DNA of 27,533 nucleotides from Lentzea aerocolonigenes. Lineage in GTDB: Bacteria; Actinomycetota; Actinomycetes; Mycobacteriales; Pseudonocardiaceae. Positions within the stretch are counted from its first letter, which is position 1; every line of letters begins with the position of its first letter. Positions 156 to 14,872 of the stretch are shown here, piece by piece. Made by a program: the position numbers and the translations under genes. A model generated the notes under the pieces. That model saw only the letters and a list, made by a program, of their open reading frames with translations, did no database searches and was not told the DNA's origin. Location: contig NZ_JYJG01000350.1 in assembly GCF_000955955.1 (NCBI RefSeq), positions 1 to 27,533 on the forward strand, written 5' to 3'.

Positions 156-2738
156 TCACCCCAACGCCAACCGAGCATAAGCCCGAACATCAGCATCAGA
201 ATCATCAAGCGCCCTCTTCAACCCCAACACCACCTCACCCTCCCCAGACCACCGCCCCAACGCCCGAACAGCAGCCTTCCGAACATCAAGATTCCGATCC
301 TCCAACAACCCGACCACCAACGCGGCGGAGTCGAGCGCCCAAGCCACCCCGACCCGAACCTCCCAAGCCGCATCCCCCATCAACTCAACAGCCCGCTCGT
401 GCAACCCACCCGGCCACCCACAACGGCCCGCCGACTCCAAAGCCGCAGCCCGCACGAACAAATCCGAATCCCGCGACAACTCGACCAGCACACCGACATC
501 CGAGATCCCCCGAGCAACCTGAACCCGAACCTCCCGAGACGAATCCCCAGCGGCAGCGGCCAACCTCTCATCAGCGCGAAGCGCCACCAGCCCCCGAACA
601 GCCGCCAATCGCACCTCAACGTCAGGGTCCGACAGCCCGGCCTCATAAACCGAGACCGTCCCGAGCTTCAACGCCCACAACACTTCCAACGCCACAGCCC
701 GAGCAGGCGACTCTTCCAACGCCACTCGCAACTCCTCCGAAGGAGGCACAACCTCAACCAACTCAAGCAACCCAGCCGCGGCAGCATCCCGCACACCGGA
801 GTCAGCCATGGCTCGCACCAACGCGAACTCGAACCCAGCCGGCACAACCTCGGTCAGCACCGAAACAGCCGCCCGCCGCACGGTCACATCGGCATCGACC
901 AGGTAGGGCTCCAACACCTCCAACGAAGGCTGCGACTCCACCAGCCCAAGCACCTGGAGCACCCGCTCGGACTCCACAACCCGTTCGTCGGCAACGGAAT
1001 CCGCAACAGCCGACGCAACGGAAGCGGCCCGCACCCCCAGGTACTCGACGGAACCGGCCCGGTGCGGCACCCCGTCCACGTCCACCAGGTACTCGGCCAC
1101 CGGCCGCTTCACGAACTCCATCTCCCCATCAGCGTTCTTCCGCAGATTCAGGTGATGGAACCACCGGTCGTCGTCACGCTCGGGCAGATCGACCCGGGAG
1201 TGGTACAGCCCCCACCGAGACTCGTCCCTCATCAACGAGGACGCCGCGGCCATCTCCGCACAGTCCCGGATGAACGAAACCTCCACGCACCGCATCAACT
1301 CATGCGCGGACCGAGCCCCCATGGCGGCGATCTCCGCGGTCATCCGGTCGAACGCCTCCAACGCCAACGACAACTTGGTCGCGGTCTTGGGCGGAGCCAC
1401 GTAGTCGTTGACGAACCGGCGAAGCTTGTACTCGACCTGCGGCTGCGGCGGCCCGTCAGGTTGCCGCATGTGCCGGTAGATCAGCTCATGTGCCTCGGCC
1501 ACGGCGGCAGCGGGCAACTCAGCGAGCGGGGCGAGGTGAGCCGAAGCGTGCGCTCCGGCCAGATCCCCGAACACGAACGCCCCGATCATGTAGTTGTGCG
1601 GCACACAGGCAAGATCTCCAGCCGCGTACAACCCGGGAACGGTCGTGAGACCGTTCTCATCCACCCAAACCCCGGAAGCCGAGTGGCCACCGCACAACCC
1701 GATCTCCGAGATGTGCATCTCGATGTCGTGCGTCCGGTAGTCCCGGCCCCGTCCACTGTGGAACGTCCCGCGCGATGGCCTCTCCGTTGAATGGAGAATC
1801 CCTTCCAACGCCGAGATCGACTCCTCGGGAAGGTGTGTCGTCTTCAGGTAGATCGGCCCGCGAGCGGAAGCGATCTCCGCGGCCACCTCGGCCATCATCT
1901 GCCCTGACCAGTAGTCGCAGTCGACGAACCGCTCCCCCAGGGCGTTCACCTGGTAGGCCCCGAAGGGATTGCCCACGTACGCGCAGGCAGGCCCGTTGTA
2001 GTCCTTGATCAGCGGATTGATCTGGAAGCACTCGATCCCGGACAGCTCGGCCCCGGCGTGGTAGGCCATCGAGTACCCGTCGCCGGCATTGGTCGGGTTC
2101 TCGTAGGTCCCGTACAGATAGCCGGAAGCAGGCAACCCGAGGCGGCCAGAAGCCCCAGTGGCCAGCACCACGGCCCCGGCCGACACGGTCACGAACTCGC
2201 CGGTCCGGGTGTTGAACCCGGCAGCCCCGACCGCACGCCCCTCCGACACGAGCACCCGAACCGGCATCACCCGGTTCTCGATGCGCAAGCGTTCGCGCAA
2301 CCGCCGCTCCCGCATCACCCGGTACAGGACCTTCTTGACGTCCTTCCCCTCGGGCATCGGCAGCACGTACGACCCGGACCGGTGCACCTGCCGGACGTTG
2401 TAGTCGCCGAACGAGTCCTTCTCGAACTTCACGCCGTACCGCTCAAGCCGTTGCACCATCTCGAAACCGCGCGTAGCGGTCTGCATGATCGTGCGCTGGT
2501 TGACGATCCCGTCGTTGGCGCGCGTGATCTCGGCGACGTAGTCCTCAGGCCGGGCTTTCCCAGGAATGACAGCGTTGTTGACGCCGTCCATCCCCATCGC
2601 GAGAGCACCGGAATGCCGGACGTGAGCCTTCTCCAGCAACAGAACCGAGCGACCGGCCTCGGCCGCGGTGATCGCGGCCATCGACCCGGCCGTGCCGCCG
2701 CCGATCACCAGCACGTCGCAGGACAACTCAACAGTCAT
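156..2738 (-). CDS. AprA/fumarate reductase-like FAD flavoprotein fused to a C-terminal HEAT-repeat domain
   Basis: This 860-residue protein is probably a cytoplasmic FAD-dependent oxidoreductase. The N-terminal dinucleotide-binding motif GGGTAG is at 13-18. The segment RHSGALAMG (41-49) resembles the SGAVAQG region of adenylylsulfate reductase alpha subunits more than the covalent-FAD motif of succinate dehydrogenase. A second FAD-contact region, LYAAGD, starts near 370. The flavoprotein part ends near 555. From about 585 to 860 there are seven or eight HEAT-type units of the form D-x4-VRxxA (for example near 616, 704, 755, 788, 815 and 848). The ATG at 2738 overlaps the stop of the ATPase gene by four bases (ATGA), so the longer upstream reading frame is not the start. 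The adjacent ferredoxin gene is the likely electron partner. The reaction and substrate are unknown. A sulfur compound is a guess from the AprA resemblance and the SsuABC-like importer. Confidence 0.85.
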   Translation of the reverse strand: MTVELSCDVLVIGGGTAGSMAAITAAEAGRSVLLLEKAHVRHSGALAMGMDGVNNAVIPGKARPEDYVAEITRANDGIVNQRTIMQTATRGFEMVQRLERYGVKFEKDSFGDYNVRQVHRSGSYVLPMPEGKDVKKVLYRVMRERRLRERLRIENRVMPVRVLVSEGRAVGAAGFNTRTGEFVTVSAGAVVLATGASGRLGLPASGYLYGTYENPTNAGDGYSMAYHAGAELSGIECFQINPLIKDYNGPACAYVGNPFGAYQVNALGERFVDCDYWSGQMMAEVAAEIASARGPIYLKTTHLPEESISALEGILHSTERPSRGTFHSGRGRDYRTHDIEMHISEIGLCGGHSASGVWVDENGLTTVPGLYAAGDLACVPHNYMIGAFVFGDLAGAHASAHLAPLAELPAAAVAEAHELIYRHMRQPDGPPQPQVEYKLRRFVNDYVAPPKTATKLSLALEAFDRMTAEIAAMGARSAHELMRCVEVSFIRDCAEMAAASSLMRDESRWGLYHSRVDLPERDDDRWFHHLNLRKNADGEMEFVKRPVAEYLVDVDGVPHRAGSVEYLGVRAASVASAVADSVADERVVESERVLQVLGLVESQPSLEVLEPYLVDADVTVRRAAVSVLTEVVPAGFEFALVRAMADSGVRDAAAAGLLELVEVVPPSEELRVALEESPARAVALEVLWALKLGTVSVYEAGLSDPDVEVRLAAVRGLVALRADERLAAAAGDSSREVRVQVARGISDVGVLVELSRDSDLFVRAAALESAGRCGWPGGLHERAVELMGDAAWEVRVGVAWALDSAALVVGLLEDRNLDVRKAAVRALGRWSGEGEVVLGLKRALDDSDADVRAYARLALG

Positions 2739-3391
2739 GCCTTCACCGCCGCGAGAATCGCGTCGCGCTCGCGTTCGACCTCGCCCGCGCCCAGGACGAC
2801 CACCCGGTCGCCCAGCAGCACGGCCTCGTCGACGTCGTGCGTGACGAACAGAGTCGTGGTGCCGGCCAGCACCTCGGTCACCAGTTCCTGCATCGACGAG
2901 CGCGTCTGGGCGTCCAGCGCGCCGAACGGCTCGTCCATCAGCACCACGGACGGTTGCTGCGCCAACGTCCGCGCCAGCTGCACCCGTTGCCGCATGCCGC
3001 CCGAGAGCTCGCGCGGCAGGTAGCCCTCGAACCCGGCCAACCCGACGCGTTCCAGCCACTCCAAGGCCCGGGAACGGCGAAGCGCGCGTGGAACTCCTTG
3101 CAACGCAAGCGGAAGCTCGACGTTGCGCAACGCCGTCCGCCACGGCAGCAGGCCGTCGTCCTGGAACACCAGAGCCCGGTCCCGCGACGGCCCGCGCACC
3201 GCAACGCCATCAACGGAAATCGAGCCGGCAAAGGGAATCAGGCCGGCGACCGCACGCAGCAGGGTGGACTTGCCGCAGCCGGAAGGCCCGGCCACCACCA
3301 CGAACTCGCCGGAAGCGACGGACAACGAGAACTCGGACAGGACGGCGGACCGGCCGTAGCCGACGGTCAGCGAACGCACGCTCAGGCTCAT
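2735..3391 (-). CDS. ABC transporter ATPase, nitrate/sulfonate/taurine (SsuB/TauB) family
   Basis: This 218-residue nucleotide-binding subunit powers import with the permease and lipoprotein encoded just upstream. Walker A is GPSGCGKST at 35-43, the Q-loop glutamine is Q77, the signature LSGGM is at 129-133, Walker B VVLMDEP is at 149-155 and the switch histidine is H185. The FGALDAQTR stretch after Walker B is typical of SsuB/TauB proteins. Its ATG overlaps the permease stop by four bases and its own stop overlaps the flavoprotein start by four, so translation is probably coupled. The family assignment is firm. The transported compound is inferred only. Confidence 0.93.
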   Translation of the reverse strand: MSLSVRSLTVGYGRSAVLSEFSLSVASGEFVVVAGPSGCGKSTLLRAVAGLIPFAGSISVDGVAVRGPSRDRALVFQDDGLLPWRTALRNVELPLALQGVPRALRRSRALEWLERVGLAGFEGYLPRELSGGMRQRVQLARTLAQQPSVVLMDEPFGALDAQTRSSMQELVTEVLAGTTTLFVTHDVDEAVLLGDRVVVLGAGEVERERDAILAAVKA

Positions 3392-4152
3392 CTCAGGGCC
3401 TCCCGGGGAAGCCACCGCGTCACGCGGCGGCCCAGCAGTTCGACAGCGGCGGACGTCAGGTAGCCGAGCAGGCCGATCGTGACCATGCCGACGATCACGC
3501 CGGGGTAGTCGACGACCGTGTAGGCCTGCCAGGTGCGGTAACCGACGCCGAACTGGCCGGAGATCATCTCGGCCGAGATCACGCAGATCCACGCCACGCC
3601 CATGCCGACGGACAGGCCGCCGAAGACACCGGGCAACGTGCCGGGCAGCACCACGCGGAACAGCACCTGCCAACGCGACGCGCCCATGGTGCGGACCGCG
3701 TCTTCCCAGATCGTCGGCAGCGCGCGCACCGCATGCCGCGTCGACACCAGGATCGGGAAGAACGCCGCGATGAACGTGATGAACACGATCCCCTGCTCGT
3801 CGGTCGGGAACAGCAGGATCGCGATCGGCACCAGCGCGATCGCCGGGATCGGCCGGACCACCTCCAGCGGCGGCCGCAACAGGTCTCCCAGCAGCGGTGA
3901 CCGCGCGATCAGCACCCCGAAGGCGATGCCCAGCACCGCGGCCAGCAGGAAGCCGGTCATGATGCGCGCCAGGCTGTTGCCCAGGTCGTGGTAGTACTCC
4001 GGGCCGCCGACCTGCGCCGCGAACCGCTCCGCCACCTCGACGACGGTCGGCAGCTGGTCGAACCGCAGCCACATCCGCACATCCGATGCCGTCAGCACCT
4101 GCCACAGCAGCAACACGACTGCCACGGACCCGATCCTCAGCGCCCAGCGCAT
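3388..4152 (-). CDS. ABC transporter permease, SsuC/TauC-like
   Basis: This 254-residue integral membrane protein has an N-terminal hydrophobic helix (about 6-22) and several further helices. The cytoplasmic EAA loop is recognisable as DAVRTMGASRWQVLFRVVLP at 151-170, where it docks on the ATPase. Length and layout fit the BPD_transp_1 family subgroup that imports sulfonates, nitrate or bicarbonate. The start is the ATG at 4152, which shares one base with the stop of the binding-protein gene (TGATG). A longer open frame upstream runs inside that gene and is rejected. It forms one importer with its two neighbours. Confidence 0.92.
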   Translation of the reverse strand: MRWALRIGSVAVVLLLWQVLTASDVRMWLRFDQLPTVVEVAERFAAQVGGPEYYHDLGNSLARIMTGFLLAAVLGIAFGVLIARSPLLGDLLRPPLEVVRPIPAIALVPIAILLFPTDEQGIVFITFIAAFFPILVSTRHAVRALPTIWEDAVRTMGASRWQVLFRVVLPGTLPGVFGGLSVGMGVAWICVISAEMISGQFGVGYRTWQAYTVVDYPGVIVGMVTIGLLGYLTSAAVELLGRRVTRWLPREALR

Positions 4153-5459
4153 CACTTGCCCGCCGAGGAAAGCGCCTGCTGGAACGTCAGCACCTGGCCA
4201 CGCTTCGACGCGGCCGCCTCGGTCGTGAACGGCAGCAGCTCGGCACCCGACTGCACCCAGAACGCGTGGTCGGCGAACCACCGCGTGCCCGTTTCGGCGT
4301 CCGGCACATATCCGACGCGCAGCTTTTTGCCGCTCGCGTTGACCAGCTTCAGCAACGCGGTCGGCGACGCCACGGCCTCAGGAGCGCCGCCCTCGAACCA
4401 CGCCTCGCTCGCGACCTTCGGGTCCCCACCGAGCGTTGCCGGGTTCGTGAGGTCATCTGTCGACTCCACGACGTCCTTCAACGGCTTGTCGTCGATGAAC
4501 TTGTCCACGTCGAGCTCGTCGATGTTGCCGATCGACTTGAGGAACGGCACGTCCTCCTTCAAAGCCTTGCGCAGCACCGACTTCAGCGAGAGGTCGAACG
4601 TCGCGATCCCGTTCGGCCCGTTGTAGAGGTAGACGACCTCGACCGGCAGTGAAGTGGCCTTCGAAACAACCTCCGCGGCTTCGAGCGGCTTGGCGTGCAG
4701 GAACTTCGTCGCGTCGAGCTGCGCCCGCAGGAACTCGCGCAACACCTCAGGCTGTTGCTGTGCAAAGGGATTCCGCACCACGGTCCCGTGCAACGTCGGC
4801 AGGTTCAGCGCGGCCCCGTCGTACAGCAGCTTCGCCTGCCCCGCGAACACCAGCTGTCCGGGCCACGCCACGAACTGCGCGAGCGCGGCCACGTTGCCCG
4901 ACTGCAGCGCCGAAGCACCCACGGAAGGCTGCTGGTTCTCGATGGTCACCTCGGTGTCACCCAGGGCTCGCACCAGCGTCCCGTGCCCGGCCGACCCGAC
5001 GCTCGCGGACACCTTCTGCCCAGCGAGATCAGCGAGGGTCCTGGCCGACGAGCTGGGCGGCACCACGACCGAGTTCAGCCCGCCGCGGGCGTTGTACCCG
5101 GTCACCGCGACCATCCGGGTCCCCTGGTCGCCCTGCTTCTGCGTGCGCGAGCCGTTGATCAGCAGCGGGTAGTCGCCCATCGAGCCGATGTCGATCTTCC
5201 CCGCGATCATCTGCGCGGTGATCGGCGCGCCGGTGTCGTAGTCCTGCCAGGTCACCTTGTACGTCCTGCCGGTCTTCTTGCCGAGCTCGGTCAGCCGTTG
5301 CTCGAAGAAACCCTTGTCCTTCAACAACGTGCCCGCGGTGACCGTGTTGATGGTCTTCGACTGGTAGCCGATGACGACCGGGACCTCGGCACCGGAAGCC
5401 GCCTCGCCCGTCCCGCACGCGGCGAGCAGAAGAACTGATGCGAAGAACAGCCGCTTCAC
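4152..5459 (-). CDS. ABC transporter substrate-binding lipoprotein, SsuA/NMT1-like
   Basis: This 435-residue extracytoplasmic solute receptor captures the substrate for the adjacent permease. A GTG start at 5459 is chosen because AAGGAAG lies five to ten bases upstream and because it gives a compact lipoprotein signal: basic KR, a hydrophobic stretch, then the lipobox LAAC with Cys15 as the lipidated residue. The mature part has the features of the NMT1/SsuA fold (a YQSKTINT segment near the N-terminus, IDIGSMGDYPLL in the middle). At 435 residues it is longer than many SsuA proteins (about 320), with extra C-terminal sequence of unknown role. Substrate class: sulfonate, nitrate-like or a thiamine-precursor-like molecule. 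It cannot be narrowed from sequence. Confidence 0.88.
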   Translation of the reverse strand: MKRLFFASVLLLAACGTGEAASGAEVPVVIGYQSKTINTVTAGTLLKDKGFFEQRLTELGKKTGRTYKVTWQDYDTGAPITAQMIAGKIDIGSMGDYPLLINGSRTQKQGDQGTRMVAVTGYNARGGLNSVVVPPSSSARTLADLAGQKVSASVGSAGHGTLVRALGDTEVTIENQQPSVGASALQSGNVAALAQFVAWPGQLVFAGQAKLLYDGAALNLPTLHGTVVRNPFAQQQPEVLREFLRAQLDATKFLHAKPLEAAEVVSKATSLPVEVVYLYNGPNGIATFDLSLKSVLRKALKEDVPFLKSIGNIDELDVDKFIDDKPLKDVVESTDDLTNPATLGGDPKVASEAWFEGGAPEAVASPTALLKLVNASGKKLRVGYVPDAETGTRWFADHAFWVQSGAELLPFTTEAAASKRGQVLTFQQALSSAGK

Positions 5460-5470
5460 GAATCTTCCTT

Positions 5471-5698
5471 TCACCGCAGGAGGTAAGGCATGTTGATGGT
5501 CACGGCACCCGTTGGGCAGCGAGCGGCACAAGGCCCGCAGTACCAGCACTCGTCGACGTGCATGTACGCCTTGCCGGAATCGGGATTGATGGCCAGCGAG
5601 TCGAGCGGGCACATGTCAACGCACAGCCGACAGCCTTCGATGCACTTGGATTCGTTGATCGTCACCGGTACGTCGGCACGGTTGTTGACCAGAGCCAT
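5471..5698 (-). CDS. small two-[4Fe-4S] ferredoxin, probable partner of the flavoprotein
   Basis: This 75-residue protein binds two iron-sulfur clusters. The first cysteine set is C19, C23, C26, C30 (spacing 3-2-3, slightly unusual because the first gap is normally two). The second is C51, C54, C57, C61, followed by PTGA as in classical bacterial ferredoxins. Adenylylsulfate reductase beta subunits also combine two such clusters but are about twice as long, so this is a minimal version at most. A GGAG motif lies about nine bases before the ATG. It sits between the regulator and the importer genes, 11 bases before the lipoprotein start. I infer that it shuttles electrons to or from the flavoprotein. 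Confidence 0.9.
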   Translation of the reverse strand: MALVNNRADVPVTINESKCIEGCRLCVDMCPLDSLAINPDSGKAYMHVDECWYCGPCAARCPTGAVTINMPYLLR

Positions 5699-5735
5699 GA
5701 CTCAACTCCAGGAATGTGGTGGAAGATATGGGGTT

Positions 5736-6482
5736 TTAGCGACAGATTTCGGCGCGCATGGTCAAGCGATCGCCACGCATGCGAATGAACTCCAGATCGA
5801 CTGGCCGGCCGGAAGCGAAATGACTGAGTCGTTCCACGACCATCAGCGCCGCCCCGCGCGGCACTTCGAGCACGGTCGCGGAGTGCAGATCGGCGTTGAC
5901 GGCTTCCAGCGCCACCGAGGCCGTCCCGAGCCGCTGTCCGGACGTCTGCTCGATCAACGAGAAGATGTCGCGGTTGACGAGATCCTCGTCCAGCAGCGGC
6001 TCGCCGACGTCCAAAGCCAGATATGTGAGATCCAGCGACAACGGCAGCCCGTTCAACCGCCGCAACCGCTCGACGTAGACGACGGATGAGTCAGCGGGAA
6101 GCTGAAGCCGTTGCGCGACCACCGAAGGCGCCCGGATCACGGTCGCCGCCCGCACGTCGTTGGTGATCTGCCCGTGCTCGTGCAGGGTTTCCGCGAGTCC
6201 CATCAGCTGGTTCAGCCCGTGCTCGACCTTGTCCGCCACGACCACGGTGCCGACGCCCGGCACGCGGTCGATGAGGCCTTCCTCGCGCAGCAGTTCCAGC
6301 GCCTCGCGAATGCTGTTGCGGGACACCGAGAACTCGGCGGCGAGAAAGCGTTCATCGGGCAGCACGCCGTCGGGAAACGCACGGCGCACCACCTGCTGGC
6401 GGATTACGTCGGCGGCCTGTCGCGCCCGGTCGGCGCGCAACCGCCGCTCGGATCGCGGGCTGCTGCTCATGGCCCACAGCAT
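5736..6482 (-). CDS. GntR-family (HutC/UTRA) transcriptional regulator
   Basis: This 248-residue DNA-binding protein is the first gene of the flavoprotein/importer operon and so probably its own and the operon's regulator. The winged helix spans about 20-86, with the recognition region FSVSRNSIREALELLREEGL and the wing RVPGVGTVV. The C-terminal half fits the UTRA ligand-binding domain of the HutC subfamily (LRRLNGLPLSLDLTYL, DLEFIRMRGDRL). Start codons at 6482 and 6470 are both possible and neither has a clear ribosome-binding site. The gene ends 37 bases before the ferredoxin gene. A tandem 11-base repeat upstream may be its operator. The ligand is unknown but is expected to relate to the imported substrate. 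Confidence 0.9.
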   Translation of the reverse strand: MLWAMSSSPRSERRLRADRARQAADVIRQQVVRRAFPDGVLPDERFLAAEFSVSRNSIREALELLREEGLIDRVPGVGTVVVADKVEHGLNQLMGLAETLHEHGQITNDVRAATVIRAPSVVAQRLQLPADSSVVYVERLRRLNGLPLSLDLTYLALDVGEPLLDEDLVNRDIFSLIEQTSGQRLGTASVALEAVNADLHSATVLEVPRGAALMVVERLSHFASGRPVDLEFIRMRGDRLTMRAEICR

Positions 6483-6499: not shown

Positions 6500-6521
6500 C
6501 AGTTTGTTACCAGCGTGTTAC
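6500..6521. promoter_or_regulatory. tandem 11-base direct repeat upstream of the GntR gene
   Basis: CAGTTTGTTAC is followed immediately by CAGCGTGTTAC (nine of eleven bases identical). This places two copies on the same helix face, 18-39 bases before the GntR start. It is the most conspicuous pattern in the 91-base gap between the GntR gene and the znuB-like gene. It could be the operator of this regulator, although HutC proteins more often bind inverted repeats. Confidence 0.35.
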
Positions 6522-6573
6522 GCCACCTGGTCAGCGCATTAAGCAGGGAAAAGACGTCAGCTACGCCAGTCCA

Positions 6574-7389
6574 TCATGTGGAACGGCGCTGAACAGCCCC
6601 AATACCTCGGCATACGAGGTATATCACGAAGCTCACCGCCGTGACGAGAGCGGAAACCGGAAGCCCTGGTTGCAGCGACAGAAGAATGCCTCCGACGGCC
6701 GCCACTTCCGCGAAAACAACGGAAAGGACGGTCGCGCGAAGAGGCGACGCGGTGAGGCGCATCGCGGCGGCAGCGGGCGTGATCATCAACGCCAGCACCA
6801 GCAGCGCGCCGACGACCTGCACGCTCAATGCGGTCGCGACACCGACCAGCACCGCGAACACGATCGACAGCCCGCGCACCGGAACCCCGCGCGAGATCGC
6901 CACGTCCGGGTCGACCGAGGAGAAGAACAACGGCCGGTAGATGAACGCCAGCACGACCAGCACCGCGATCGACGAGATCACCAGCAGCTGCAGGTCCGTC
7001 GAGTCGACGCCGACGATCTGCCCGGTCAGCAGGCCGAACTTGTTCTTCGACCGTCCCTTGTAGAGGGACAGCATGAGAATGCCCATGCCGAGCCCGAACG
7101 CCAGGATCGCGCCGATCACCGAGTCGCGGTCGCTCTCCCGCCGCGACAGCACGCCGAGCAGCACCGCGGCGATGATCGACCCGGCCAGCGCGCCGTACCC
7201 GACGCTGATGCCGAGCAGCAACGCCGCCGCACCACCGGTGAACGCGAGCTCGGAAGTGCCGTGCACCGCGAACGCCATCTTGCGGGTCACCACGAGCGGA
7301 CCCAGCACCCCGGCCACGAGCCCCAGCACGGCAGCCGCGATCAACGCGGTCTGCACGAAGTCCAGTTCGAGCAGGTCGAGAAAGCTCAC
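6574..7389 (-). CDS. znuB: zinc/manganese ABC transporter permease (ZnuB family)
   Basis: This 271-residue multi-helix membrane protein of the ABC-3 family forms the metal channel. It has the family's succession of hydrophobic segments with few charges, and conserved stretches such as AFAVHGTSELAFTGGAAALLLG near the N-terminus and VVGALLVLALMITPAAAA in the C-terminal half. The start is the GTG at 7389, which overlaps the ATPase stop by four bases (GTGA). A longer frame upstream lies inside the ATPase gene. It is the last gene of the three-gene metal importer operon, and the GntR operon begins 91 bases downstream. Zinc versus manganese cannot be settled from this subunit. Confidence 0.92.
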   Translation of the reverse strand: MSFLDLLELDFVQTALIAAAVLGLVAGVLGPLVVTRKMAFAVHGTSELAFTGGAAALLLGISVGYGALAGSIIAAVLLGVLSRRESDRDSVIGAILAFGLGMGILMLSLYKGRSKNKFGLLTGQIVGVDSTDLQLLVISSIAVLVVLAFIYRPLFFSSVDPDVAISRGVPVRGLSIVFAVLVGVATALSVQVVGALLVLALMITPAAAAMRLTASPLRATVLSVVFAEVAAVGGILLSLQPGLPVSALVTAVSFVIYLVCRGIGAVQRRST

Positions 7390-8177
7390 GACGCGGCCTC
7401 CGCGGTGAGGTGGTGCGTCTGCTCCTCGCACGCGCCCGCGCCGACCACCAGGATCTGGTCACGCACCCGCACGACCTCGACCGGCGTCCGGTACAGCTCG
7501 GACAGCGTCGCCGAGTTCATCACCTCGTCCGGCTTGCCGACGCGGAAGCGCCCGCCGACCAAGTACAGGACCCGGTCCACCAACGGCAGCACCGGGTTCA
7601 GCTCGTGCGTCACGAACAGAACAGCGGTGTCGGCCTCACGCCGGCGCTTGTCGATCAGCTCGGAGACCACTCGCTGGTTCGCGAGGTCCAACGACAGCAA
7701 CGGCTCGTCGCACAGCATCACGCGTGGGTCGCCCACGAGCGCCTGCGCGACCCGCAACCGTTGCTGCTCGCCGCCGGACAACAGGCCCAACGGCGCGTCG
7801 GCGTACCTGCTCGCCCCCACAGCGGCGATGGCCTCGTCGACGCGAACCCGGCGCTCACGGCGGTTGCGCACGCCGAGGCCCCACCGGTAGCCGTCGAGGC
7901 CGAGACCGACGAGGTCGCGGCCCCTCAACGTCATGGACTGCTCGAGCGCTCGCTGCTGCGGGATGTACCCGATGGCGTGGTTGCCGCCCGCGACCTCGAC
8001 CGAACCCGACGACAGTTGCTGCAACCCCAGCAGCACCCTCATCAGGCTGGTCTTGCCGGACCCGTTCGGCCCGAGGACCGCGAGGAACTCACCGGGCTCG
8101 ACGTCGAGGTCGAGCCCGTCCCACAGCACCCTGTCCCCGTAGGACAGGCGTGCCCCGCGCAGCGAGATCGCGGTCAT
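7386..8177 (-). CDS. znuC: zinc/manganese ABC transporter ATPase (ZnuC family)
   Basis: This 263-residue nucleotide-binding subunit carries Walker A GPNGSGKTS at 36-44, a Q-loop YIPQQ near 71-75, signature LSGGEQ at 133-138, Walker B VMLCDEP at 153-159 and switch H191. The motif combination and the neighbouring ABC-3 permease and TroA-type lipoprotein identify a metal importer. Both ends overlap their neighbours by four bases, so the three genes are probably translated together. Confidence 0.93.
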   Translation of the reverse strand: MTAISLRGARLSYGDRVLWDGLDLDVEPGEFLAVLGPNGSGKTSLMRVLLGLQQLSSGSVEVAGGNHAIGYIPQQRALEQSMTLRGRDLVGLGLDGYRWGLGVRNRRERRVRVDEAIAAVGASRYADAPLGLLSGGEQQRLRVAQALVGDPRVMLCDEPLLSLDLANQRVVSELIDKRRREADTAVLFVTHELNPVLPLVDRVLYLVGGRFRVGKPDEVMNSATLSELYRTPVEVVRVRDQILVVGAGACEEQTHHLTAEAAS

Positions 8178-9043
8178 GCCTTGAGCGCCTGTGAAAGCGC
8201 GTCCACCTGCTTGCTCATCCAGTCAAGGTAGCTGGTCACGCCCTCGGGCAACGTCTCGGTGACCGCGACGACCGGGATGCCCGCCGACTTGGCCTTCTCG
8301 ACGATGCCCTTGGTGACCTGGTTCTCGGTCTGCGTGTTGTCGACCAGCACGTTGATCTGCTTGCCCTCGACCAGCTGGTTCGTCTCGGCGAGCGCGGCGG
8401 CCGGCACGTCCGACTCCTCCTCGATCGCCTTGCTGAACGCCTCGGGCGTGACGTCCTGGGCGCCGGTCTCGTCGAGCAGGTAGTGGGCGATCGGCTCGGT
8501 GGCGACGGCCTTGCGCCCCTTGCCGACGCCGTCGACCTTCTTCCCCAGCTCCTCGAGCTTCGCGCTGAAGTCGGCGGTGTTGCTCTCGAACTGCGTCTTC
8601 TTGTCCGGCGCGATCGCACCCAGCTCGTTGGCGGCCGCCTCGGCCACCGCGCGCACGGTGTGCAGGTCGTACCAGACGTGCTCGTTCTCGTCCTGCTCGT
8701 GCTCGCGCAGCGGGAACGCCTCGATCTTCTTCTGACCCTCCGTGGTGATCAGCTTGGGGAAGAAGTCGTCGTAGCCGCCGCCGTTGAACACGACCAGCTT
8801 GGCGTCCTTGATCAGCGCGGCGTCCGCGGGCTTGCTCTCGTACGAGTGCGGGTCGGCGCTCGGGTCGTCCAGCAACGCCTTGACCTCGACGGCGTCGCCA
8901 CCGACGGCCTTGATGACGCTGCCCCACACGTTCGTGGAGGTGACGACCTGGATCTTGCCGCTGTCTCCGGACGGCGTGGTCGTGCCGCAGGCGGCCAGGC
9001 TCACGACGGCCAGACCGCCGATCAGAGCGTTGCGGAGAGTCAT
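8174..9043 (-). CDS. znuA: zinc/manganese-binding lipoprotein (ZnuA/TroA family)
   Basis: This 289-residue solute receptor belongs to the cluster A-I metal-binding family. A lipoprotein signal ends in LAAC with Cys19. The first metal-ligand region is DPHSYE (His66), followed by EHVWYDL (His122). A conserved TEPIAHYLL segment and DNTQTE complete the family pattern. The loop that is long and histidine-rich in many ZnuA proteins is short and acidic here (EHEQDENEH). A GTG directly before the ATG could also start translation. The GAGGGA site fits either codon, seven to eight bases before the ATG. The gene heads the operon. Confidence 0.92.
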   Translation of the reverse strand: MTLRNALIGGLAVVSLAACGTTTPSGDSGKIQVVTSTNVWGSVIKAVGGDAVEVKALLDDPSADPHSYESKPADAALIKDAKLVVFNGGGYDDFFPKLITTEGQKKIEAFPLREHEQDENEHVWYDLHTVRAVAEAAANELGAIAPDKKTQFESNTADFSAKLEELGKKVDGVGKGRKAVATEPIAHYLLDETGAQDVTPEAFSKAIEEESDVPAAALAETNQLVEGKQINVLVDNTQTENQVTKGIVEKAKSAGIPVVAVTETLPEGVTSYLDWMSKQVDALSQALKA

Positions 9044-9066
9044 CACGCCGTCCCTCGATCAGGTAA

Positions 9067-9141: not shown

Positions 9142-10236
9142 TCACGCCTCCAGGCGCTCGCCCGACTCGGGGTGGAACAGGTGGATCTCGCTGTGGTCGC
9201 GCACGGCGACCTTGACGTGCTGGCCCAGGGTCGGCGGCGTGCGGCCGTCGACGCGGACGACGAAGCGCTGCGAGCCCTCGCCGATCTTCACGGCACCGTG
9301 CACGAGCGCGTCGGCGCCGAGCTCCTCGACCAGCTCGACGGTCATGTCCATGCCCTCGTCGCCCGACGGCACGATGCCGAGCGCCTCGGGCCGGATGCCG
9401 AAGGTGACCTCGTCCAGACCACCGGCGGCGTCGAGCGCGGCACGGGACAGCGGCACGACGATGCCGTCGAGCTTCGCGCCCTCCGCCGAGATCGGCACGG
9501 TCTTGAGGTTCATGGCCGGCGAACCGATGAAGCCGGCGACGAACGCGTTGGCCGGGCGGTCGTACAGCGCGCGAGGCGTGTCGCACTGCTGCAGCAGGCC
9601 GTCCTTGAGCACGGCGACCCGGTGGCCCATCGTCATGGCCTCGACCTGGTCGTGCGTGACGTAGATCGTGGTGGTGCCGAGACGCTGCTGGAGAGCGGCG
9701 ATGTTCGCACGCGTCTCGACGCGCAGCTTGGCGTCCAGGTTGGACAGCGGCTCGTCCATGAGGAACACGGACGGCTCGCGCACGATGGCGCGACCCATCG
9801 CGACACGCTGACGCTGACCACCGGACAGCGCCTTCGGCTTGCGCTCCAGGTACTTCTGCAGGTCGAGCATCTTGGCGGCCTCTTCGACCTTCGCCTTGAT
9901 CTCGGTCTTGCTGACGCCGCGCAGCTTGAGCGCGAAGCCCATGTTCTCGGCGACCGTCATGTGCGGGTACAGCGCGTACGACTGGAACACCATCGCGATG
10001 TCCCGGCCCTTCGGCGGCACGTTGGTGACGTCCTTGCCACCGATGTGGATGGCGCCCTCGTCGACGTCCTCCAGGCCCGCGAGCATGCGCAGCGCCGTCG
10101 ACTTACCGGAACCGGACGGGCCGACCAGCACCAGGAACTCGCCGTCGCTCACCTCGAGGGAGAGCTCGTCGACCGCGCGGACCGGCGGGTTGCCGGAGAA
10201 GACCCGCGAAGCCTTGACGTAGGACACCTCAGCCAT
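9142..10236 (-). CDS. msiK: multi-sugar import ATPase (MsiK/MsmK/UgpC family)
   Basis: This 364-residue ATPase energises carbohydrate ABC importers and may serve several permeases, as MsiK does in Streptomyces. Walker A GPSGSGKST is at 39-47, Q-loop Q85, LSGGQ at 137-141, Walker B FLMDEP at 158-163, switch H195. The C-terminal regulatory TOBE/MalK-type domain follows from about 240 (TFGIRPEALGI). The ATG at 10236 is preferred over a GTG nine bases upstream because an AAAGG lies eight bases before it. It is downstream of malEFG but separated by 114 bases with three palindromic operators, so it has its own regulated promoter. It is terminated by the hairpin at 9099-9129. Confidence 0.92.
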   Translation of the reverse strand: MAEVSYVKASRVFSGNPPVRAVDELSLEVSDGEFLVLVGPSGSGKSTALRMLAGLEDVDEGAIHIGGKDVTNVPPKGRDIAMVFQSYALYPHMTVAENMGFALKLRGVSKTEIKAKVEEAAKMLDLQKYLERKPKALSGGQRQRVAMGRAIVREPSVFLMDEPLSNLDAKLRVETRANIAALQQRLGTTTIYVTHDQVEAMTMGHRVAVLKDGLLQQCDTPRALYDRPANAFVAGFIGSPAMNLKTVPISAEGAKLDGIVVPLSRAALDAAGGLDEVTFGIRPEALGIVPSGDEGMDMTVELVEELGADALVHGAVKIGEGSQRFVVRVDGRTPPTLGQHVKVAVRDHSEIHLFHPESGERLEA

Positions 10237-10278
10237 GTGACGCACCTTTCACCGCTTGTCTTGACGCGACGTTAGGCA

Positions 10279-10294
10279 TTGCAAGCGCTTACGG
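10279..10294. promoter_or_regulatory. LacI-type operator O1 (imperfect) before msiK
   Basis: TTGCAAGCGCTTACGG holds the core AAGCGCTT with a central CG, centred at 10286.5. It is a degenerate copy of the two perfect sites further upstream of the gene and is the copy nearest to msiK. Confidence 0.6.
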
Positions 10295-10300
10295 GAACAG

Positions 10301-10316
10301 ACGTAAGCGCTTACGT
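10301..10316. promoter_or_regulatory. LacI-type operator O2 (perfect palindrome) before msiK
   Basis: ACGTAAGCGCTTACGT is a perfect 16-base palindrome with a central CG, as expected for LacI/GalR-family operators and similar to an ideal Bacillus catabolite-responsive element. Its centre is 22 bases from O1 and 30 bases from O3, about two and three helical turns. Confidence 0.8.
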
Positions 10317-10330
10317 TTCCCGTTCGGACA

Positions 10331-10346
10331 ACGTAAGCGCTTACGT
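10331..10346. promoter_or_regulatory. LacI-type operator O3 (perfect palindrome) before msiK
   Basis: This is an exact second copy of ACGTAAGCGCTTACGT, ending four bases before the stop codon of malG. The identical sequence and 30-base phasing with O2 argue for cooperative binding by one regulator. The sequence differs from the CTTGCAA-type sites at malE, so a second regulator is likely. Confidence 0.8.
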
Positions 10347-10350
10347 CGTC

Positions 10351-11244
10351 TCAGCCCTTCACGGCACCGGACGACAGCCCGGTCACCAGGAACCGCTGCA
10401 CCAGGTAGAACACGATCACCGCGGGAATCGCGACCAGAATGGACGCGGCCGCGAGGTGCCCCCACTCGGTGCGGTTCTGCTGCACGAACACCTGCAGCCC
10501 GACCGCGAGTGTCTTCGAGTCGTCCGCGGCCGACAGGAAGGCCGACGCGAACGCCACCTCGCCCCACGCCGTCAGGAACGCGTAGAACGACGTCACCGCG
10601 AGCCCGGGCTTGGCCAGCGGCATGACCAGCCGCCAGAACACCCCGAACGGCGACAACCCGTCGACGCGACCGGCCTCGTCGATGTCCGTCGGGATCGTGT
10701 CGAAGTAGCCCTTGAGCATGTACGTGCAGAACGGCACCGCAGTCGTGCAGTACACGAGCACGAGACCGAGCGAAGTTCCTTGCAGCCCAAGAGCGATCAG
10801 GATGTTGTACAGCGGCACGATCAGCACCGCGAACGGGAACATCTGCACGACGAGGAACGACATCATCAGCGATCGCTTGCCGGGGAACCGGAAGCGCGAC
10901 GCCGCGTAGCCCGTCGTCGCCGAGAGGAACACCGCGATGACCGTCGTCAGCAACGCGATCAGCACCGAGTTGCCGAACCAGGTGAGGAACGCGCCCTTCT
11001 CCCCGCCGAGAATCCGCGAGTAGTTGTCCAAAGAGGACTCGTTGAACAACTTCGGCGAAGTCTCCACCGCGCGGGCATCAGGCTTGAAAGACGTGACGAG
11101 CACCCAGAAAACCGGGAACACCGCGATCAACGACGCGATGATCAGCCCGGCGTGCAGGCCCACAGACGCGGCGAGAGAACGGTCGCTGCGCTTGAGGCGT
11201 CGTTCCGGTTTGACCATCTGCAACGAAGAAGCGTCGAGCGTCAT
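10351..11244 (-). CDS. malG: maltose-type sugar ABC permease (MalG family)
   Basis: This 297-residue inner-membrane permease is one half of the heterodimeric sugar channel. It has an N-terminal helix at about 30-51 and the cytoplasmic EAA-type loop DEAGRVDG at 189-196 that contacts the ATPase. The C-terminus GLSSGAVKG is typical of MalG/ThuG proteins. The ATG at 11244 shares one base with the malF stop and has GAGG seven bases upstream. GTG codons three and six bases earlier are alternatives. The substrate is probably an alpha-glucoside such as maltose or trehalose, judged from family and regulator only. Confidence 0.92.
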   Translation of the reverse strand: MTLDASSLQMVKPERRLKRSDRSLAASVGLHAGLIIASLIAVFPVFWVLVTSFKPDARAVETSPKLFNESSLDNYSRILGGEKGAFLTWFGNSVLIALLTTVIAVFLSATTGYAASRFRFPGKRSLMMSFLVVQMFPFAVLIVPLYNILIALGLQGTSLGLVLVYCTTAVPFCTYMLKGYFDTIPTDIDEAGRVDGLSPFGVFWRLVMPLAKPGLAVTSFYAFLTAWGEVAFASAFLSAADDSKTLAVGLQVFVQQNRTEWGHLAAASILVAIPAVIVFYLVQRFLVTGLSSGAVKG

Positions 11245-12161
11245 CACCACACCTCGCCTTGCTTGCGCAGCGCACGGCGGTAGACCGTGGCGAAGACCAA
11301 CAACACGGAGAGGATGAGCACGCCGTAGGTCGATGCGACCGCGTAGTCACGTGAGGCGCCGGAGAAGAAGCGCTCGAACGCGTACGTGACGAGGATGCGC
11401 GTGTTCGGGTTCGGGCCGGCGATCAGGTAGATCACCGGGAACATGTTGAACGTCCAGATGATGCCCAGCAGGATCACCGTCGACGACACCGAGCGCAGGC
11501 CCGGCAGCGTCACGTTGCGGAAGCGCTGCCACGGCGTCGCGCCGTCCATCTCCGCGGCTTCGTAGAGATCGCCGGGGATCGACTGCAGGCCACCGAGAAG
11601 CGCCACCATCATGAACGGCACACCGAGCCAGACGTTGACGACGATCACGGCGAACAGAGCCCAGTCGGACTGGCCCAGCCACACCGGGTCGGGCAGGCCG
11701 ACCGCGCGCAGCAGCTGGTTGATGATGCCGTACTGCGCGTTGAACATGTACTTCCAGGCGAACGCGCTGATGAACGCGGGCACGGCCCACGGCAGGATCA
11801 GCAGGACGCGGTAGAGCGTGCGGCCCCTGACCTCGCGGTTCAGCAGCAGCGCCAGACCCAGGCCGATCACGTAGTGCAGGAACACGCAGGCGAACGTCCA
11901 GATCAAGGTCCGGACCAGCGTGCCCCAGAACGCGCCGTACGACGTGTCGCCGGACAGCACGTTGAGGTAGTTCTTGAAGCCCACGCCCGAGTAGGTGGCC
12001 GGCCGGTCGAGCACCGGGTTGGCGATGTTGGCCTCGTTGATGTTGGTGAAGGTGAAGAACACGCCCTGGGCGAGCGGGTAGAGCACCAACACCGCGATGA
12101 CCACCACGACCGGCAGGACCATCGCGTACGCGTACCAGTGCCGTTCCAAGAACCGGCGCAC
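11244..12161 (-). CDS. malF: maltose-type sugar ABC permease (MalF family)
   Basis: This 305-residue membrane protein pairs with MalG. The first helix is at about 12-33. A periplasmic segment (about 40-78) follows, far shorter than the large P2 loop of enteric MalF and typical of Gram-positive homologues. The EAA loop EAAEMDGATPWQRFRNVTLP is at 201-220. It starts with GTG at 12161, preceded by a strong GGAGGGGAGAG site, and is separated from malE by 60 bases that hold a stable hairpin. Confidence 0.93.
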   Translation of the reverse strand: MRRFLERHWYAYAMVLPVVVVIAVLVLYPLAQGVFFTFTNINEANIANPVLDRPATYSGVGFKNYLNVLSGDTSYGAFWGTLVRTLIWTFACVFLHYVIGLGLALLLNREVRGRTLYRVLLILPWAVPAFISAFAWKYMFNAQYGIINQLLRAVGLPDPVWLGQSDWALFAVIVVNVWLGVPFMMVALLGGLQSIPGDLYEAAEMDGATPWQRFRNVTLPGLRSVSSTVILLGIIWTFNMFPVIYLIAGPNPNTRILVTYAFERFFSGASRDYAVASTYGVLILSVLLVFATVYRRALRKQGEVW

Positions 12162-12184
12162 CGAATCTCTCCCCTCCGACTAAT

Positions 12185-12212
12185 GGGCGGCCGTGGCGAG
12201 CCACGGCCACCC
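12185..12212. other. intercistronic hairpin between malE and malF
   Basis: GGCCGTGG-CGAG-CCACGGCC (12189-12208) is a perfect 8-bp stem with a four-base loop, extendable to 11 pairs across one mismatch (GGG at 12185-12187 with CCC at 12210-12212). There is no T-run, so full termination is unlikely. Such hairpins behind binding-protein genes can protect the upstream mRNA and raise the receptor:permease ratio. That role is inferred here. Confidence 0.7.
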
Positions 12213-12221
12213 GGTCAGCAA

Positions 12222-13478
12222 TCAGCCGATGGAGTACTCGGGAACGACGGTGTCCTTGTAGGCCTTGGCGACCTCGTCGAGCGCCGCCTTGGCCTCCTTC
12301 TTGCCGGAGAGGACGTCGGCGTAGGCGATCTTCAGCGGGTCGAACAGCTGGCCGCCCTCGGGGATCCACGGACGGGCGTGCGCGGCCTTGGCGACCGGCT
12401 CGAACGCGGACACGACGGCGTTGGCCTTCACGTCGGCGTTGCTGTACGCGGACTTGCGGGTCGGCAGCAGGCCGAGCTCCTTCGCGACCTGGGCCTGCGA
12501 CTCGACCGAGCTCATGCACTGGATGAACTTGATCGAGGACTGCTTGGCCTTGGTGCCCTGGCGGATCACGTAGTCGTGGCCACCGACCGGCGCGCTGCCC
12601 TTGCCCGCGCTGTCACCGGGAACCGGCGCGATGCCGAGGTTGGAGGCGTCGGTGAACGCCGTGCCCTTGAGGTAGTCGGCGACGGCCCACGGACCGTTGA
12701 TGACCATCGCGGCGTCACCGGACGAGAACGCGGCCTGCATGTTCGCGTAGGAGTTCGTCGGGTCGAGCGCGGTGGAGGCGGCCTTTGCGTCGAGCAGGCC
12801 CTTGGCGGTCTGCAGCGCCTTCACGTTGTCCGCGGAGTTGACCACGATCTTCTTCGCCGAGGCGTCGACCAGGTCGCCGCCCGCGCCGTAGATGAACGGC
12901 AGCGCGTAGTACGCGTCGTTGTTGAGGAAGAACGACTTCTCGCCACCCAGCTTGGCAGCGGCGGCCTTGACCTCGTCCCACGTCTTCGGCGGCTCGACAC
13001 CGGCGTCGGCGAGCTTCTTCTTGTTGTAGAGCAGGGCGAGCGAGTCGGTGACCTGCGGGACGCCCCACGACTTGCCCTCGTACTTGGTGGAGCCCAGCGG
13101 GACCTCGAGGAAGTCGCCGGTGTCCTTGGCGAGGTCGGTGTCGCTCAGGTCGTTGATCAGGCCGTTCTTGGCGAGCTGCGGCACCCAGGCGACCTCGGAG
13201 CGGAACACGTCCGGGCCCTGACCGCCCTGCGCGGCGGTCTTGTAGTTGTTCAGCGCCTGGTCGAACGCGACGGTCTCGGTCTTGACCTTGTAACCGCCCT
13301 TCGAGGCGCAGTCGTTCGCGATCTTGGTGAACACGGGGCTCTCGTTGGGGCCACTGGTGTCCCAGAAGGTCACTTCGCCCGAGTCGGATCCGCTGCTGCT
13401 CGATCCACCGCCTCCGCAGGCGGTGAGCACGAGGGCGACACCCGTCGCCATGGCGGTCACGAGGGTTGTCCGTCGCAT
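12222..13478 (-). CDS. malE: sugar-binding lipoprotein of the maltose/alpha-glucoside transporter (MalE family)
   Basis: This 418-residue extracytoplasmic receptor heads the malEFG operon. The signal MRRTTLVTAMATG... ends in the lipobox LTAC with Cys21, followed by a Gly/Ser-rich tether. Typical family-1 solute-binding features follow: EVTFWDTSG at the mature N-terminus, a GPDVFRSEVAWVPQL segment, and WAVADYLKG. The ATG at 13478 is the only start giving a proper signal peptide. GGAGGG lies about 13 bases upstream, a long spacing. Upstream frame extension is rejected. It is divergent from a LacI-family gene with operators in between, so it is probably repressed in the absence of substrate. Confidence 0.93.
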   Translation of the reverse strand: MRRTTLVTAMATGVALVLTACGGGGSSSSGSDSGEVTFWDTSGPNESPVFTKIANDCASKGGYKVKTETVAFDQALNNYKTAAQGGQGPDVFRSEVAWVPQLAKNGLINDLSDTDLAKDTGDFLEVPLGSTKYEGKSWGVPQVTDSLALLYNKKKLADAGVEPPKTWDEVKAAAAKLGGEKSFFLNNDAYYALPFIYGAGGDLVDASAKKIVVNSADNVKALQTAKGLLDAKAASTALDPTNSYANMQAAFSSGDAAMVINGPWAVADYLKGTAFTDASNLGIAPVPGDSAGKGSAPVGGHDYVIRQGTKAKQSSIKFIQCMSSVESQAQVAKELGLLPTRKSAYSNADVKANAVVSAFEPVAKAAHARPWIPEGGQLFDPLKIAYADVLSGKKEAKAALDEVAKAYKDTVVPEYSIG

Positions 13479-13530
13479 CGTTGCTGCCGTTCCCTCCAGC
13501 TGGGCCCCATCTCCCAGTGAGATGAGGGGT

Positions 13531-13548
13531 CTTGCAAGGTTTTGCGAG
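13531..13548. promoter_or_regulatory. MalR-type operator near malE
   Basis: CTTGCAA-GGTT-TTGCGAG is an inverted repeat with one mismatch and a four-base centre, 53 bases before the malE start. It resembles the CTTGCA-type motifs of actinobacterial maltose regulators as I recall them. A weak malE promoter (TTGACC complement at 13586-13591 and TAGTGA complement at 13565-13570, 15-base spacer) would place this operator just downstream of the start point. Confidence 0.6.
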
Positions 13549-13625
13549 AATGTTGCGGGCGATTTCACTACCAGAACCATGGTCAGGTCAAGACGTCGAC
13601 CGTAACCAAGCCGTAACGGCACTGT

Positions 13626-13671
13626 CTCGCAAACACGCATTGCAAATTTTTTCTGAGCGCGGCAAGCTTGC
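13626..13671. promoter_or_regulatory. further operator half-sites before the LacI-family gene
   Basis: CTCGCAA (13626-13632) and TTGCAAA (13640-13646) repeat the half-sites of the malE operator at wider spacing. GCAAGCTTGC (13662-13671) is a perfect 10-base palindrome 30 bases before the regulator's start. Together these suggest autoregulation of the LacI-family gene. The exact sites need footprinting. Confidence 0.45.
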
Positions 13672-13700
13672 GCCGAACCTGATGTGAGCTGGGAGGCAAC

Positions 13701-14738: not shown

Positions 14739-14756
14739 GACGCCCAATAGGTGATA

Positions 14757-14770
14757 TTGGTCTGGACCAA
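14757..14770. promoter_or_regulatory. DasR-type dre site
   Basis: TTGGTCTGGACCAA is a perfect inverted repeat (TTGGTC-TG-GACCAA). Its core TGGTCTGGACCA differs at one position from the TGGTCTAGACCA core of DasR-responsive elements, the operators of the N-acetylglucosamine regulator of actinobacteria. It lies 18 bases after the first LacI-family gene and about 100 bases before the second. Confidence 0.6.
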
Positions 14771-14837
14771 ATTCTGAACAAGGCAGATGGGTCAACCAGC
14801 GCGGATGCGTCATTTGAGGGACACAGGTCACCCTCGC

Positions 14838-14872
14838 TTCACGAATTGGTTCTGAACCGTTACGGTCCTTTC
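14838..14872 (+). promoter_or_regulatory. probable leaderless promoter with overlapping palindromes before the second LacI-family gene
   Basis: TTCACG (14838-14843), a 17-base spacer, TACGGT (14861-14866) and six bases to the ATG at 14873 fit a promoter whose transcript begins at the start codon. No ribosome-binding site is present. Two overlapping perfect inverted repeats, GGTTCTGAACC (14848-14858) and ACCGTTACGGT (14856-14866), cover the spacer and -10 element and could be an autoregulatory operator. Confidence 0.5.

Follow-up and report, generated by a model that had tools for sequence, protein, structure and literature searches.

The characterised sulfonate system closest to the genes described here is asfRABC, which in the available sections of PMC4267179 and PMC9694294 comprises a reductase/ferredoxin pair, a substrate-binding protein (SBP), an ATP-binding cassette (ABC) transporter and a LysR regulator; in Pseudomonas putida S-313 it serves aryl sulfonates and is proposed to supply electrons to a monooxygenase. 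Aerobic desulfonation by oxygenases such as SsuD and TauD is described in the same sections of PMC4267179. On plasmids of Acidithiobacillus caldus, the available part of PMC12375680 reports a 'ferredoxin/APS reductase/GntR' module and a 'NirT/TauT sulfonate transporter', two operons for which organosulfonate uptake and assimilation were predicted. Here we compare these and related systems with a six-gene operon of Lentzea aerocolonigenes, which lies on the minus strand at 156-6470 of a 27,533-nucleotide stretch of contig NZ_JYJG01000350.1 (this whole stretch is called the window) in the order gntR, ferredoxin, SBP, permease, ATPase and flavoprotein-HEAT fusion. It resembles asfRABC in combining a reductase, a ferredoxin and an SBP/ABC transporter that would serve sulfonate sulfur, but its regulator is GntR instead of LysR, and a candidate AsfA seems to fall elsewhere in the flavoprotein superfamily.

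We propose, giving the idea even chances, that the operon is a self-contained sulfonate-scavenging module in which import is joined to a ferredoxin-linked, flavin-dependent release of sulfite. At the level of sequence the proposal stands on the gene order and its conservation, the family placement of the flavoprotein, its altered active site, a sulfonate-type SBP and a HEAT part that is a detachable partner. We infer that the SsuA/TauA-type lipoprotein, with the ABC permease and ATPase, would import a sulfonate-type anion; that a cytoplasmic flavin adenine dinucleotide (FAD) enzyme of the AprA/PAPS-reductase branch, wired to the 2[4Fe-4S] ferredoxin, would break its carbon-sulfur (or other sulfur-linked) bond, the sulfite released entering normal assimilation; that the HEAT solenoid, as a docking platform, would hold the flavoprotein-ferredoxin complex; and that electrons would run from ferredoxin to FAD. 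Alternatively, an oxidation in which ferredoxin accepts the electrons could turn sulfite into a leaving group. GntR-UTRA would sense a pathway ligand. The features of the locus are as follows.

5736-6470 (to 6482 if the upstream ATG is used), minus strand: gntR, regulator with GntR helix-turn-helix and UTRA domains (PF00392, 54.6 bits; PF07702, 105.7 bits); opens the conserved gene order
5471-5698, minus strand: two-cluster [4Fe-4S] ferredoxin of 75 residues with C-terminus ...NMPYLLR (PF12838, 43.9 bits)
4152-5459, minus strand: SBP lipoprotein of SsuA/TauA type, GTG start, LAAC lipobox (SsuA_fam, 121.6 bits, cut-off 163.5)
4155-4412, minus strand: C-terminal NosL-like domain of the SBP, about residues 350-435 (alignment; PF05573 in orthologues; pLDDT above 90 for residues 351-430)
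3388-4152, minus strand: ABC permease of NrtB/TauC/SsuC type (PF00528, 85.1 bits)
2735-3391, minus strand: ABC ATPase of TauB/SsuB/NrtCD type (best match the TauB model, 214.9 bits, cut-off 357)
156-2738, minus strand: flavoprotein-HEAT fusion, PRK13800, 860 residues (NF010374, 1437.9 bits, cut-off 1196)
1062-2738, minus strand: FAD/catalytic part of the flavoprotein, residues 1-559, AprA/PAPSR-like (PRK08275, 853.6 bits, cut-off 587; 8a8o_A; tree)
159-968, minus strand: HEAT-repeat part of the flavoprotein, residues 591-860 (PF02985, PF13646; 19 helices, pLDDT mostly above 85)
6515-6530, minus strand: directional motif CCAGGTGGCGTAACAC upstream of gntR (position weight matrix, PWM, over upstream regions)

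The gene set in actinobacteria and beyond

The sequence-only reading had seen six co-directional genes, the last four overlapping by 1-4 bases and under a GntR-family control gene, and this is confirmed in detail: 37 bases separate gntR from the ferredoxin gene and 11 the latter from that of the SBP, the following junctions overlap by 1, 4 and 4 bases, and the regulator carries both GntR and UTRA domains. A scan of named-species genomes yielded at least 588 relatives, and in 75 of the best 80 loci, all with actinobacterial names, the six genes stood in one order on one strand, so that their conserved order is far beyond chance. Of the five others, four run into the start of the available sequence, and in the fifth (L018), where the edge of the stretch shows only part of a ferredoxin, no gntR was seen, which may lie beyond. 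The flavoprotein match extended past residue 845, into the HEAT part, at all 80 loci. The nearest copies were those of Lentzea sp. NPDC006480 (flavoprotein 93% identical) and Lentzea nigeriaca (82-98% identity across all nine compared genes). A survey of open reading frames (ORFs) disclosed no convincing conserved flanking genes in the actinobacterial loci, its counts being lower bounds because the ORF caller, which also gave antisense ORFs, missed some operon genes (it found the ferredoxin in 37 loci and the ATPase in 30).

The PRK13800 cut-off was passed in 8 of 296 genomes sampled from the phylum, the window's own included, and a protein search found at least 6312 proteins at E<=1e-30 among 7997 candidates, the best 120 being 64-100% identical. 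The gene set is widespread in soil actinobacteria and already labelled in databases. With these numbers, the NCBI models PRK13800 and PRK08275 and the organosulfonate assimilation predicted for the apparent A. caldus copy (PMC12375680), the earlier view that the pathway might be undescribed is not supported. We found no experimental function for the PRK13800/PRK08275 family in the accessible parts of the open-licence literature, and the accessible sections of papers on Gordonia, Rhodococcus and Acinetobacter named no such flavoprotein. A genome of the same order also holds a broken PRK13800 relative (G288:C1:763727-764981), in which only residues 25-194 and 641-893 match and one TGA lies inside.

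A search of plasmid records gave 126, of which 60 were listed, and we read 16 non-actinobacterial neighbourhoods, picked for gene tables that covered the match instead of by random choice. Four were from cyanobacteria of three genera and twelve from proteobacteria (Acidithiobacillus, Cupriavidus, Methylocystis, Mesorhizobium, Acinetobacter, Aquabacterium, two Paraburkholderia, Methylobacterium, Bradyrhizobium, Rhizobium and Sinorhizobium). Their flavoproteins were 55.1-61.6% identical to that of the window over residues 2-555, and every locus held, in one stretch, an unfused flavoprotein (PRK08275), a ferredoxin of 75-81 residues and a separate HEAT-repeat protein. SBP, permease and ATPase were all annotated in 14 of the 16, the set being incomplete in the Nostoc and Mesorhizobium tables and, in Acidithiobacillus, present with a transposase in between. 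From the legend in the available part of PMC12375680, its operons are apparently the pTcM1 genes; the A. caldus copy would thus be of the same family and have the same genes, with HEAT separate, its function there being a prediction only. A DUF971/GBBH-like or Mrp/NBP35 gene accompanied 12 of the 16 copies, which would fit a need for iron-sulfur assembly. The plasmid copy of the actinobacterium Tsukamurella is of the fused form. The Nostoc edaphicum copy (L116 8989-18420) is a long cluster in which genes for two HAD hydrolases, a methyltransferase, GNAT and VOC proteins separate the flavoprotein gene from the ferredoxin/HEAT genes, which are followed by Mrp, GNAT and amidase genes.

Since HEAT is a separate protein beside PRK08275 in all 16 non-actinobacterial loci and fused in actinobacteria, this Rosetta-stone link indicates that it works with the flavoprotein, and the earlier idea that it docks a partner gains strength. 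Two of the separate HEAT proteins were scanned, and each scored 87 bits on PRK13800, the match covering model positions 609-896. The fusion itself was borne out by PF02985/PF13646 and a helical model; the seven or eight repeats first counted were not, the mostly confident prediction for residues 591-859 having 19 helices in about nine pairs. The minimal ferredoxin also stood, with 75 residues and two cluster motifs (C-x3-C-x2-C-x3-CP, then C-x2-C-x2-C-x3-CP). The eight-cysteine pattern with C-x3-C is present in 76 of 77 actinobacterial ferredoxin rows, the window's included, the exception being a fragment; outside actinobacteria the spacing is C-x3-C in 4 of 16 and C-x5-C in the other 12. A C-terminal [IM]P[YF]L[LVI][RK] occurs on the window ferredoxin and on all 16 non-actinobacterial ones, and plausibly serves as a docking tail.

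Placement and active site of the flavoprotein

The window flavoprotein is a member of its NCBIfam family, matching PRK13800 over residues 3-859 and, by its catalytic part, PRK08275 (NF006131), the models for the fused and unfused forms. It scored below the cut-offs of AprA-like PRK06854 (268.6 bits, cut-off 557), AprA TIGR02061 (133, cut-off 641.75) and the succinate dehydrogenase (SDH)/FrdA models TIGR01812, TIGR01816 and TIGR01176 (134.4, 101.6 and 95.8; cut-offs 567.3, 727.35 and 932.7), and gave 145 bits with TfrA; the ferredoxin likewise reached 30.5 bits on AprB model TIGR02060 (cut-off 135.65). These included the profile searches that the sequence-only reading had proposed. The closest solved sequence was the alpha subunit of the 3'-phosphoadenosine 5'-phosphosulfate (PAPS) reductase (PAPSR) of Methanothermococcus thermolithotrophicus (Mt; 8a8o_A, about 199-199.8 bits), ahead of AprA of adenosine 5'-phosphosulfate (APS) reductase (about 106-107.7 bits) and SDH (80 bits), and the MtPAPSR beta chain was among the sequence matches of the ferredoxin. 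A fold search also ranked 8a8o first, which lends weak support because the catalytic part of the predicted model (mean pLDDT 62) is unreliable.

In a tree of 44 rows, from which four badly extracted ones (G_L109, G_L112, G_L004 and G_L137) had been excluded, as from the column counts below, the 32 PRK13800/PRK08275 rows (the window, 16 of the 80 actinobacterial and 15 of the 16 plasmid loci) formed one group (100/99) adjoining the AprA/PAPSR group (100/99). As branches are long and the tree is midpoint-rooted, we regard the two as likely sisters. The fused actinobacterial rows made a single clade (100/100), so that one fusion event suffices. A PAPSR-like alpha gene on an Ilyobacter polytropus plasmid (L125 5393-10724; PRK06854, 843.6 bits), which with its ferredoxin gene adjoins cysC, cysD and a gene for a GTP-binding protein, grouped with the methanogen PAPS reductase (100/100).

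The resemblance to MtPAPSR and dissimilatory AprAB extends to the pairing of an FAD subunit with a two-cluster ferredoxin subunit, the C-terminal motif E[ST]RW..Y..R.D.P and the Apr-type FAD segment; the first description of the protein as AprA-like is supported. Its RHS-GALAMG aligned with the RS-GA of AprA/PAPSR and had no counterpart of the H-T/H-S insertion, two residues long, that three SDH/FrdA-type rows carry. The covalent-FAD His motif R-S-H-[TS] of these rows was absent, as first noted, and so were their arginine segments R-D-[IV]-V-[AS]-R and N-R-L-G, which are likewise marks of SdhA/FrdA. Unlike MtPAPSR and AprAB, the window operon has a HEAT domain, an importer of its own and a ferredoxin of 75 residues, compared with 104 (Mt) or 150-166 (AprB).

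The active site also departs from theirs. Arg265, Trp234 and Asn74 (Af numbering) are active-site residues of AprA and PAPS reductase alpha. All 32 rows retained Asn74 as well as the His that corresponds to Mt His346, whereas position 265 was Leu, 234 Tyr and 145 (Gln in AprA) Val in every one, and Arg260 was replaced by Phe in 25 and Tyr in 7. The available part of PMC10322725 describes a Gln145 clash and a loop for the 3'-phosphate. If flavin-sulfur chemistry persists, the missing Arg265 suggests another way of binding the substrate anion. The 32 rows come from three phyla, and because 224 alignment columns were identical in 31 or all of them, one function across them is probable. With AprA residues replaced and SDH/FrdA motifs missing, the flavoprotein is unlikely to be an APS/PAPS reductase or a fumarate reductase; the models' name, 'fumarate reductase/succinate dehydrogenase flavoprotein subunit', is unfit for its active site, although no difference from its family was seen in the protein itself.

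Importer, sulfur context and regulation

An importer of the Ssu/Tau type, as originally suggested, is supported by the SBP and by the ATPase, which is closest to TauB. All four sequence matches of the SBP in the PDB were SsuA/TauA sulfonate binders, which also took Foldseek ranks 1-8 with the predicted model. The sulfonate site of such proteins is formed by a Gln, two Gly and a Ser/Thr contact (PMC6906117, PMC3839906). The Gln was found in 77 of 77 actinobacterial and 14 of 14 plasmid rows (one of these from the actinobacterium Tsukamurella) and the first Gly in 79 of 79 and 14 of 14; the second Gly was present in 78 of 78 actinobacterial rows but replaced by Ala in 10 of the 14 from plasmids, and the Ser/Thr position was Ala in 78 of 78 actinobacterial rows and Thr (9) or Ala (5) in the 14 plasmid rows. 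Unlike SsuABC/TauABC, all three importer proteins fell below curated cut-offs (the SBP also with TauA, 61.4 bits, cut-off 304.25), and the SBP carries the NosL-like domain. PF05573 (NosL, cut-off 24) scored 25.2, 23.9 and 21.2 bits on the Rhizobium, Mycobacterium and Aquabacterium orthologues and did not match the window SBP or a fourth orthologue; of the 95 rows aligned, 44, including two reference fragments, had the Cys pair of this domain, which is missing from both Lentzea copies.

Sulfite/sulfate exporters (TauE/SafE, TSUP or YeiH-type; eight features) lay near 5 of the 16 non-actinobacterial copies, in Acinetobacter, Aquabacterium, Leptolyngbya and two Pseudanabaena, while none of the 192 features in control stretches taken from these five replicons was of this kind. 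With the homology and fold of the SBP and its kept Gln and first Gly, these exporters make the sulfur role first put forward a probable one.

Upstream of gntR, the non-palindromic, directional motif CCAGGTGGCGYAAYAC (6515-6530) scored above 10 bits with the PWM in 69 of 76 regions as against 1 of 76 shuffled ones, the former count being inflated, since these regions had also served to train the PWM; CAGGTCAG also occurred in 26 of 76. GGTGGCGYAAY was not enriched genome-wide (36 vs 48 in the control) and no regulon was found, its best additional site (L184) facing no evident sulfur gene, and there was no match in Rfam. An adjoining operon on the same strand (6574-9046) looks like a ZnuABC-type metal importer, with PF01297 at 8174-9046; the ATPase (7386-8177) and the permease (6574-7431) were assigned from translations only. 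Among the 80 loci, such an SBP and permease stood beside the six genes only in L. nigeriaca (L006). Farther on, 9142-15976 carries sugar-type ABC importer genes (MalK-like ATPase, permease and SBP) and two LacI-type regulators, the second without a reported LacI DNA-binding match.

Alternative functions and significance

Several observations weigh against a sulfonate-cleaving module. The invariant Leu and Tyr at positions 265 and 234 mean that known sulfite/APS chemistry is not simply transferable, two of the four SBP sulfonate contacts are kept only in part, and SBP, permease and ATPase all lie below the cut-offs of their best NCBIfam models. No sulfite/sulfate exporter was found in 11 of the 16 loci (from incomplete gene tables), three of the five positive loci are cyanobacterial, the Acinetobacter exporter is about 6.6 kb from the flavoprotein, and the Leptolyngbya plasmid has a sulfate importer in its control stretch, so that this plasmid may collect sulfur genes in any case; for these reasons the exporters are a suggestive link and not a statistic of independent events. 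A sulfur-regulator site was not identified, and expression or growth data for the family were not found in the accessible open-licence literature. The imported ligand could be free of sulfur, the importer belonging to the wider NrtA/CmpA/ThiY fold group and the flavoprotein oxidising or reducing a carbon skeleton, for instance, or an N-heterocycle. The permease indeed scored best with nitrate NrtB (TIGR01183, 138.7 bits; TauC 116.1, SsuC 107.3; all below cut-off) and GntR reached 95 bits on PhnF, also below cut-off, while the SBP belongs to the NMT1/THI5-like Pfam family and in VIA-align CmpA/NrtA (25.7) came close behind sulfonate binders (26.2). As the nearest relatives of the SBP by sequence and fold are nevertheless sulfonate binders, and sulfite exporters lie near 5 of 16 loci, we consider a non-sulfur ligand unlikely.

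By analogy with asf, whose part list of reductase/ferredoxin, SBP and ABC transporter is similar (available sections of PMC4267179), the flavoprotein and ferredoxin might only feed electrons to an unlinked, flavin mononucleotide (FMN)-dependent SsuD-like monooxygenase that does the desulfonation. SsuD-like genes do exist elsewhere in the genome (best 442 bits, cut-off 518) and 3 of the 16 non-actinobacterial copies have LLM/FMN monooxygenases nearby, but no monooxygenase family was consistently linked in the actinobacterial loci (lower-bound ORF counts), and the 224 near-invariant columns suggest a substrate site of the flavoprotein's own. In Cupriavidus metallidurans, where Rmet_4334/5 are named AsfA/AsfB in the available part of PMC2864759, a 3.7-kb stretch at about 929 kb (L128) has a 550-residue open frame beside a two-cluster ferredoxin frame (130 residues, standard C-x2-C spacing); since the sequence record lacks annotation, it is no more than a candidate AsfA. 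This candidate scored 56.2 bits on PRK08275 (cut-off 587) and did not group with the window flavoprotein; its branch, very long and uncertain, fell outside the part of the tree with AprA and PRK08275. We therefore find an accessory role of this kind unlikely. An assimilatory APS or PAPS reductase, for which the MtPAPSR alpha and beta matches would speak, was discarded on model scores and the four changed active-site positions, and a nucleotide made internally would need no importer; we hold it to be very improbable. Fumarate reductase/SDH, which has the name of NF010374/NF006131 in its favour, was discarded on the SDH/FrdA scores and missing motifs, and is scarcely credible.

Returning to the sulfonate-scavenging module, its boldest form, which we put forward tentatively as possible though doubtful, would involve an enzyme of a new class. 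This aerobic flavin reductase, dependent on ferredoxin (or a flavoenzyme of the elimination type), would liberate sulfite from sulfonates by cleavage unaided, would have arisen from the APS-reductase line by replacement of substrate arginines, would have HEAT as an obligate third component and would be part of a plasmid-portable module shared by actinobacteria, proteobacteria and cyanobacteria. Known desulfonation in aerobes proceeds mainly by oxygenases (SsuD, TauD). If the proposal is true, a widely shared importer joined to an APS-reductase-like flavoenzyme would give a second way of obtaining sulfur from soil sulfonates, and many 'fumarate reductase' labels would be corrected; the small size of the gene set makes its function directly testable.

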